From: Ornithinibacillus bavariensis
GTDB lineage: Bacteria > Bacillota > Bacilli > Bacillales > Amphibacillaceae
Direction: 5' to 3'
Assembly (NCBI RefSeq): GCF_018333235.1
Contig: NZ_BORP01000001.1
Span: 620,001-684,000, forward strand
Length of the DNA stretch: 64,000 nt
Shown here: piece after piece, positions 34,135 to 35,518 of the stretch
Numbering within the stretch: the stretch's first letter is position 1
Layout: the number at the start of each line of letters is the position of its first letter
Notes under the pieces: generated by a model
Seen by the model: only the letters and a program-made list of their open reading frames with translations
Database searches by the model: none
What the model was told of the DNA's origin: nothing
Made by a program: the position numbers and the translations under genes

Positions 34135-34410
34135 ATGAGAACGAATCGTCAAGGATTAATTGTTTGGTTCCAGCATACAAAGAACATAAAACAATTGAAG
34201 CGTTTAGGACATATATTATATACATCTAAAAGAATGAAGTACGCCGTAATGTATGTGGAACAAGACGAAATTGAAGAAATTGAAAAGAAATTACTAAAAT
34301 ACCCGTTTATCTCAAAGGTAGATCGTTCCTATAAGCCTTTCGTTCGTACGGAATACGAAAATGCAAAGCCAGATAAAGCCAAGCAATATGATTATAAGAT
34401 GGGAATTTAA
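34135..34410 (+). CDS. ylbG: UPF0298 / DUF2129 protein YlbG
   Basis: The 91-residue protein from ATG 34135 (GGTGAGGA upstream) begins MRTNRQGLIVWFQHTKN and has the compact alpha/beta pattern of UPF0298. It follows ylbF, as in most Bacillaceae. Function unknown. An 11-codon upstream extension is unlikely. Confidence 0.9.
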   Translation: MRTNRQGLIVWFQHTKNIKQLKRLGHILYTSKRMKYAVMYVEQDEIEEIEKKLLKYPFISKVDRSYKPFVRTEYENAKPDKAKQYDYKMGI

Positions 34411-34438
34411 ACCCCTTGCATATGCAAGGGGTTTTTTT
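34409..34438 (+). terminator. Terminator after ylbG
   Basis: AAACCCCTTGC pairs perfectly with GCAAGGGGTTT around ATAT, followed by T7; it begins inside the ylbG stop codon. Confidence 0.92.
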
Positions 34439-34672
34439 GTATATAATCATAATCAGTATAGAATTGGTATCGCTAAATTGTTTCTAATTTTGATACTAAC
34501 AGAATATCGGTACTTGATAGCATTTCTTTTAAGTAAACTTATAAAGTAAGTTAAATAACCGAAAAGCCTAGAAATGGAGAATTAATACTATTTGTAAATA
34601 GAGATAAGAGCATTAGTCTAATTGACCGAGAGGTAGTAAAGTATAGTTAATAGACGTTGTTCAAATAGAAAA

Positions 34673-34820
34673 TAAAAAAACCTGCAGAAATTATTCTGCA
34701 GGTCCCTTTGTTTTCTTGTAGAAAACAAAAAGGCAAAGGGAGAGGAGAAACCGGAGGAGAACTTATGGGGAAGTGTAAGTCTTCTCCGTGTTTTGAAACA
34801 ACCAAGCTACGCATTAGCTG
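34673..34820 (-). ncRNA. Probable minus-strand small RNA between ylbG and rsmD
   Basis: On the minus strand CCTGCAGAA/TTCTGCAGG (34681-34702, 9 bp, tetraloop) is followed directly by T7-A-T4, a textbook terminator. Upstream on that strand lies a bulged stem (34752-34788) whose 10-nt loop shows UUCCCC, then an open C-rich stretch, then a hairpin closed by CCCTTTG/CAAAGGG. C-rich loops of this kind pair with Shine-Dalgarno sequences in Gram-positive sRNAs. The 5' end near 34820 (CATAAT at 34825-34830) is a guess. The region also occupies the position of the ylbH-leader element on the plus strand. Confidence 0.55.
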
Positions 34821-34960
34821 TTCCATTATGCTATTATGTACATTGGAAAAAATAATATACATCAGTTCCCTATTTTTTTCTATGAAATGTTTCTGTTTTC
34901 TAATCTATTTCCTTTATGGTAGGATGGAAACGTAATGATGGTAGTCGTGAGGTGTTAATA

Positions 34961-35518
34961 ATGCGTGTGATAGCGGGAATACATAAAGGAAGACAATTAA
35001 AAGCTGTACCAGGTAAGGATACAAGACCAACAACAGATAAGGTTAAAGAAGCAGTATTTCAAATACTTGGTCCTTTTTTTCAAGGTGGTAGTTGCTTAGA
35101 TTTATTTGCAGGAAGCGGTTCATTAGGAATCGAAGCATTAAGTCGCGGAATGGAGACATGTGTTTTTGTCGATAAACATCCTAAAGCCATTCAAACCGTA
35201 AGAGAAAATGTTAGTATGCTAAAGCTAAATGACCATGTAGAAATATTTCGGGCTGAAGCTTATCGAGCATTATCTGCTGCAGGCAAGCGTGGTTTATCCT
35301 TTGATTTAATATTTTTAGATCCGCCATATAACAAGGTGGATTACTTAGAATTAATAGAGTCAATTGAGAAAGAACAATTACTTCGATCTGGTGGAGTTAT
35401 TTATTGTGAGCATGATGCAAATGATATTTTACCAGAAACTTTGCCAGGGTTTTCGATGAAGAAACATACCAATTATGGTGGCACTATTGCGATTACTATT
35501 TTTCAAAAGGAAAATTAA
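34961..35518 (+). CDS. rsmD: 16S rRNA (guanine-966-N2)-methyltransferase RsmD
   Basis: This 185-residue SAM-dependent methyltransferase has motif I DLFAGSGSLGIEA and motif IV D-P-P-Y-N (FLDPPYN), typical of N2-guanine methyltransferases. MRVIAGIHKGRQL is the conserved start, so ATG 34961 with GAGGTG is chosen over an ATG 15 codons earlier. It pairs with coaD, 21 nt downstream, in the standard rsmD-coaD arrangement (ylbH-ylbI). Confidence 0.95.
   Translation: MRVIAGIHKGRQLKAVPGKDTRPTTDKVKEAVFQILGPFFQGGSCLDLFAGSGSLGIEALSRGMETCVFVDKHPKAIQTVRENVSMLKLNDHVEIFRAEAYRALSAAGKRGLSFDLIFLDPPYNKVDYLELIESIEKEQLLRSGGVIYCEHDANDILPETLPGFSMKKHTNYGGTIAITIFQKEN

Follow-up and report, generated by a model that had tools for sequence, protein, structure and literature searches.

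The csfG locus between ylbG and rsmD

The window analysed here is a stretch of 64,000 nucleotides from Ornithinibacillus bavariensis. The gap between its genes for YlbG and RsmD holds the following features, given in window coordinates, where GU:AC denotes the number of G-U against A-C oppositions in hairpin stems when read on the minus strand.

34135-34410: gene for YlbG (DUF2129)
34961-35518: gene for RsmD
34832..34860, minus strand: sigma-F/sigma-G-like promoter, GTATA (34860..34856), 17 nt, CATAATA (34838..34832); consensus score 13.3
34674..34825, minus strand: CsfG small RNA, predicted transcript of ~152 nt, from the fold, the RF00516 match on the complement and the northern blot of B. 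subtilis (PMC3574147, in the part available)
34794..34825, minus strand: 5' hairpin P0, beyond the Rfam model; in the MFE and centroid folds, 8-bp consensus stem in a 102-row alignment, GU:AC 135:17
34748..34793, minus strand: hairpin P1 bearing the C-rich loop; predicted fold and consensus stem
34767..34772, minus strand: C-rich region 1, UUCCCC in the P1 loop; from sequence and fold, strongly conserved in alignment A1
34753..34759, minus strand: C-rich region 2, CUCCUCC in the 3' arm of P1; from sequence, fold and alignment A1
34738..34750, minus strand: C-rich region 3, UUUCUCCUCUCCC; the predicted fold leaves 7 of its 13 nt single-stranded
34704..34740, minus strand: variable middle hairpin; predicted fold, GU:AC 81:10 over 101 loci
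34674..34703, minus strand: intrinsic terminator hairpin with seven T; fold and terminator scan, GU:AC 37:7 over 112 loci
34670..34791, plus strand: 'ylbH leader' match of RF00516, complementary to CsfG; 93 bits, inverted elsewhere

The 5' end of the predicted transcript was set ~7 nt after the -10 box, and its position is an estimate. At the other end, the minus strand carries the near-ideal terminator announced in the preliminary description, a GC hairpin of 10 bp (34703..34694 with 34689..34680, loop 34693..34690) and a run of seven T (34680..34674) whose first T still belongs to the stem. The claim that this terminator exists only on the minus strand is true for a good U-tract: read on the plus strand, the hairpin has a weak tail (CCCTTTGTTT), yet it was listed by a permissive scan. 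The description also saw no gene on this strand, and a protein gene there is indeed not likely, because the only minus-strand ORF of at least 50 aa in the gap (34647..34862, 71 aa) gave no match in a Pfam search. The upstream hairpin exposes UUCCCC in its loop (34772..34767) as described, and the C-rich stretch said to follow unpaired is present, but the predicted fold leaves only part of it single-stranded. The 5' hairpin (34825..34794) and the promoter-like sequence (34860..34832) had been missed. When the region was scanned for sigma-70 promoters, one promoter-like site was found, compared with 2.8 in shuffles. Directly after ylbG there is a strong plus-strand terminator (34409-34434), so read-through from ylbG into the csfG region is unlikely.

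The small RNA had been called unassigned; it is already described, and the element is almost certainly the csfG orthologue, read from the minus strand. It shares with CsfG of B. subtilis the place, with ylbG on one side and ylbH (rsmD) on the other, the strand, the C-rich loop and linker, the terminator, the sigma-F/G-like promoter and the co-occurrence with sporulation. The loop reads ACUUCCCC in the window, compared with CGUUUCCCC in most of the 105 loci tallied. According to the available parts of the literature, northern blotting in B. subtilis gave a signal on the reverse strand only, the orphan-riboswitch region being equated there with CsfG (PMC3574147), and RNA-seq of B. licheniformis gave a CsfG transcript of 107 nt, with ylbG and ylbH in the same table row (PMC3871023). 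Transcription from the minus strand and control by sigma F and sigma G have been shown in B. subtilis by published work, as far as these sources extend. The proposal that the ylbH-leader position may be, or overlap, a minus-strand sRNA therefore holds, with the RF00516 match as a wrong-strand reading of the same DNA. In Rfam 15, RF00516 covers 122 of the ~152 nt on the opposite strand, lacks the 5' hairpin and is typed as a cis-regulatory leader, and the available text of at least one RNA-seq paper repeats the ylbH-leader assignment (PMC4342826). As a known sRNA, the window element is ordinary as such, and the Rfam 15 entry for the csfG locus still describes a cis leader and gives the wrong strand.

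Evidence on the transcribed strand

Natural inversion is the best test of whether the element is, as RF00516 implies, a plus-strand cis-regulatory leader (an orphan riboswitch) of rsmD/ylbH, since a leader should be co-oriented with the gene that it leads. Among 119 loci fetched from the class Bacilli, 118 had rsmD in reach; the other (L059), a weak match with neither rsmD nor the core, was excluded. The usual arrangement, with rsmD downstream in the leader sense, was found in the window and at 115/118 loci, in agreement with a leader, and the element was inverted at the other three (L066, L067 and L113, with bit scores of 76.3, 72.9 and 113.8). L066 and L067 come from one family, and in the genus of L113 the inversion was seen in 3/3 sampled genomes (L120-L122, L120 being L113's own genome). 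Using a pattern search from the inverted loci, we also found inverted elements in records titled Metabacillus idriensis, Metabacillus indicus and Peribacillus frigoritolerans F-D2. Outside the class, 39 of 40 loci kept the usual arrangement and one (L183) was inverted, which makes a third inverted lineage. The promoter-like box moves with the inverted element at L113 (score 11.5) and L183 (score 13.3); at L066 the promoter score was 10.3, below the threshold of 11, and at L067 the terminator rule found no terminator. Because the element is inverted in three lineages, it is no rsmD leader in the RF00516 sense at those loci, and co-orientation fails overall. As natural experiments, the inversions speak cleanly against a leader. 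Two minor observations concern the inverted loci. The record titled Peribacillus frigoritolerans F-D2 carries the element pattern common to the Metabacillus records, and its title may be a misnomer. At L066 and L067, c-di-GMP-I riboswitch matches (L066:2911-3008, L067:2953-3051) lie ~1.2 kb from the element.

Second, the strand was judged from the base pairs themselves. The ungapped stem finder used for this treats G-U and A-C alike and therefore has no strand preference. In the minus-strand reading, GU:AC was 37:7 for the terminator hairpins (112 of 118 loci, no terminator being found by our rule at the other 6), 81:10 for the middle hairpins (101 loci) and 135:17 for the 5' hairpin P0 (118 loci), whereas the background from flanks was 1098:1306 over 1436 hairpins. 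With the window's genus and identical stems removed, the counts were 36:7, 56:10 and 81:16 for the terminator, middle and 5' hairpins, while the composition of the stem arms predicted only 100:82, 127:98 and 100:62, respectively. In these three hairpins, the plus strand would have A-C mismatches where the minus-strand RNA has G-U pairs, and the excess of plus-strand G-U pairs expected of a leader was not seen. The other hairpins gave no such preference, which leaves some room for a leader: P1, where bulges and a strongly conserved sequence make the test weak, had a GU:AC of 278:325, and at the 40 outside-class loci the hairpin that comes first after the core had 3:10. The base pairs of the three variable hairpins thus favour a minus-strand RNA, and those of P1 and of the outside-class first hairpin do not. 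The preliminary description had named loss of G-U pairs in the minus orientation as evidence against its proposal; the three variable hairpins gave the opposite outcome, and the other two did not.

Covariation in both orientations, also suggested in that description, did not separate the strands. When 102 of 117 rows were aligned (we deliberately dropped 9 rows belonging to the window's genus, along with 6 that had odd tails or lineage-specific inserts), RNAalifold gave totals of -49.6 for the minus and -46.3 for the plus strand, with covariation terms of 27.2 and 26.9, and column shuffles averaged -7.6 (minus) and -9.4 (plus). The structure is conserved, and the strand is left undecided by this measure. 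Folding of the window sequence gave a similar result. The minus-strand fold reached -59.3 kcal/mol (shuffles -30.5 +/- 3.5, z -8.3, 0/200 as good) and the plus-strand fold -59.1 kcal/mol (z -7.1); this near-equality is expected because the stems are complementary, and since the plus strand is almost as stable as the minus, folding energy is silent on strand. A leader is thus compatible with the plus-strand fold, its covariation and the 93-bit score of RF00516. Nevertheless, the promoter-like box and the U-tract are minus-strand features, no plus-strand RNA appeared in the B. subtilis northern in the available part of PMC3574147, and the presence of the element follows sigG. With the inversions and the G-U counts, these points make an rsmD leader very unlikely.

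The plus strand could also be read as a gene for a small protein starting MGKRKSSPR, in which GGAGG would serve as the ribosome-binding site. This start can be read in 59 of the 112 loci with a pattern-found ATG, but the similarity ends after about nine codons and there is no common C-terminus, the ORF lengths run from 3 to 86 aa, 7 of 119 loci have no ATG by pattern, and some variants of the core contain frame-shifting indels (by eye). We regard such a protein as scarcely credible.

Promoter, link to SigG and spread of the C-rich core

The promoter was scored with weights set, after inspection of the window, from what we take to be the sigma-F/G consensus, and these weights were applied unchanged to the 40 outside-class loci. 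A score of at least 11 was found before the sRNA at 97 of 118 class loci, compared with 9.8% of shuffles and 4/118 opposite strands, and GTATA was present in 105 of the 116 loci scoring at least 10. Outside the class, 37/40 loci reached at least 11 (12.2% of shuffles, 5/40 opposite strands) and 32/40 reached at least 12 (2.0% of shuffles, one opposite strand). The window's genome has a sigG gene and its csfG promoter sequence fits the sigma-F/G type, from which we infer that csfG of O. bavariensis is expressed under sigma-F/G.

RF00516 has one match in the window's genome, which scores 93 bits where the gathering cut-off is 50. Among the window's genome and its relatives, 58 of 61 genomes gave a match (57 above the cut-off), and in the class sample 183/299 did (152 above the cut-off). 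In this sample, a match was found in 182 of 209 SigG-like genomes versus 1 of 90 without SigG, where SigG-like means an E-value below 1e-60, a threshold set for this analysis (186 of the 209 pass the curated cut-off). The only match without SigG (G277) is weak (2e-4) and lacks the core. The presence of csfG-like sequence thus tracks the spore sigma factor SigG. RF00516 was not matched in 27 of the 209 SigG-like genomes, two of which (G235 and G265) have sub-threshold, core-bearing copies beside rsmD. Of the three genomes of the window's family with no RF00516 match, G017 has no SigG, G018 has a divergent SigG below the cut-off, and G035 has SigG. Second, weak RF00516 matches seen at a relaxed threshold were rejected as apparently due to chance: at E 0.1, 5/14 control genomes match, and the core was absent from the extra weak copies that we fetched.

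Several class loci showed variations of their own. At L058, a degenerate copy (34.5 bits) in a 2.0 Mb genome (G034) with SigG, the UUCCCC loop is lost and UUUCUCCUCUCCC and the GTATA box are kept; the stem and promoter counts include this locus, and the RNAalifold alignment does not. At L099, the UUUCCCC loop is changed to ACAUCGAUUA and the remaining core is kept. L090-L094 have a lineage-specific insert after the core with a common GUCUGAUAGGAGCA (by eye).

The element extends beyond Bacilli. In a phylum sample, RF00516 matched 57 of 299 genomes at E 1e-5 (7 in the class and 50 outside), and of the 50 matches outside, one reached the gathering score. We fetched 40 of these 50 loci (L154-L193), and all 40 adjoin rsmD. 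Alignment A1, with 47 rows picked from class and outside-class loci and including the window row (L001), gave a consensus core of ~38 nt, UUCCCCAUAAGCUCUUCCUCCGGUUUCUCCUCUCCC; 14 of its columns are invariant, 10 more are at least 90% identical, and the mean column identity is 85%. UUUCUCCUCUC in C-rich region 3 is invariant in 47/47 rows. The conserved CU-rich loop and interhelical segments by which the available text of PMC3574147 characterizes CsfG are also found here. A sequence-only model of the core, R1, was built from the 47 rows; it matches 141/299 genomes of the phylum sample, from which 27 of the rows had themselves been taken. R1 was found in 140 of 252 sigG genomes compared with 1 of 47 others, and it found nothing in the other 112 sigG genomes of this sample. 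The CsfG core outside the class was also seen at L194-L213. At the level of sequence, these comparisons establish the strand, the anatomy of the putative promoter and terminator, the SigG link and the conservation of the C-rich core.

As far as our literature search shows, the inversions, the strand statistics and the outside-class survey are new, which is not a proof of novelty: in the portions of the literature on CsfG, the ylbH leader and RF00516 that were available, we found no report of inversions or of a phylum-wide survey, and Marchais 2011 was not covered. That paper is reportedly the primary description of CsfG, and its title is said to contain the words "highly conserved in endospore formers".

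Possible mode of action of CsfG

Overall, the best explanation of the locus is a stand-alone forespore sRNA, CsfG, which probably acts by pairing with Shine-Dalgarno sequences, and we put the probability of this explanation at close to 0.9. On this view, csfG has a promoter of its own, of the forespore type (sigma-F/sigma-G), from which the minus strand of the ylbG-rsmD gap would be transcribed for ~150 nt, as far as a dedicated terminator. The RNA would show three C-rich segments (loop, stem arm and linker) complementary to Shine-Dalgarno sequences, and could pair antisense with the ribosome-binding sites of forespore mRNAs, blocking their translation and perhaps altering mRNA decay as well. 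RoxS and FsrA in growing cells serve as the model, and by analogy with them the pairing step in the forespore is probable.

FsrA is controlled by Fur, unlike CsfG. In the available passages, CsfG, RoxS and FsrA of B. subtilis are grouped as sRNAs with C-rich regions (PMC4409812, PMC8216469). RoxS/RsaE (RF01820) has, like CsfG, several C-rich regions in loop and linker and complementarity to Shine-Dalgarno sequences, and the C-rich loop and linker regions used to describe RsaE/RoxS in the accessible text of PMC4409812 are present in CsfG. The preliminary description was thus right about a layout like that of RsaE/RoxS with a 3' terminator, and the minus strand even gave a weak score with the RsaE covariance model. 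That score, however, is 21.8 bits, far short of the 79 required by the RsaE gathering threshold. An RsaE-like locus distinct from csfG is present elsewhere in the genome (63.9 bits, itself below 79), and the promoter of csfG is of a different type. RoxS is controlled by ResDE and NO, unlike CsfG, according to the part of PMC8216469 available. Membership of the RsaE/RoxS family, even as a divergent branch, is highly improbable.

In a duplex test, the core bound 51 start regions of the window more strongly than it bound pieces from inside coding sequences (-13.8 versus -9.5 kcal/mol, p 1e-5); each start had been chosen by its pairing with the 16S tail, a choice which favours Shine-Dalgarno-like starts. 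However, a shuffled core reached -12.9 kcal/mol with the start regions (p 0.05), so the preference reflects mostly base composition, that is, C-richness. The exact complement AGAGGAGAAA lies before a start codon at 10 sites of the genome, compared with 4 for the reversed pattern, and over the whole genome the genes at these 10 sites form no set pointing to a function. The prediction of targets from the C-rich loop against ribosome-binding sites, which the preliminary description had recommended, therefore yielded no target.

The main rival to gene-specific pairing is general anti-Shine-Dalgarno action or protein binding, in which CsfG would bind a protein or the ribosome as a decoy and general silencer of forespore translation, with no gene-specific pairing. 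Its C-rich core is kept from Bacilli to other classes, and sRNAs that pair with mRNAs usually conserve less than the CsfG core does; the generic nature of the start-region pairing also agrees with such a role. Against such a role, we know of no partner of CsfG beyond Hfq, with which it co-purifies in B. subtilis according to the available part of PMC3574147. The accessible text of PMC8216469 places CsfG in the forespore under sigma F and G and reports its mRNA target and role as not known, which suits a general role; that of PMC9147052 likewise gives no known mRNA target and states that disruption of the sRNAs listed there caused no obvious sporulation defect, which weighs against the main explanation. 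We consider a binding role of this kind unlikely. A broader proposal is that spore formers have had CsfG since before the split between Bacilli and the other classes of the phylum, and that it acts as a general anti-Shine-Dalgarno factor, silencing or storing forespore mRNAs at dormancy. This proposal starts from the ~38-nt triple C-rich core, whose conservation seems to exceed that of an ordinary sRNA aimed at specific mRNAs, and is offered as a speculative and rather doubtful extension. With a core so widespread and so well conserved beyond Bacilli, the function of CsfG becomes testable via shared targets in many spore formers.

Gene context outside the class adds a further hint. In one family (L202 and L205), the sRNA lies just before the germination protease gene gpr (PF03418; L202:1467-2441 and L205:1463-2449) on the same strand. 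The hairpin between them has a poor T-tract, and read-through into gpr is therefore possible. A csfG just upstream of gpr, a spore protease gene, would fit a forespore role. At the inverted locus L183, gpr is also nearby (648-1634), on the other strand. Finally, at L157, L167, L179 and L189, GAACCGGAG was seen by eye upstream of the core; it could pair with CUCCGGUUUC within the same RNA and so hide a C-rich segment.
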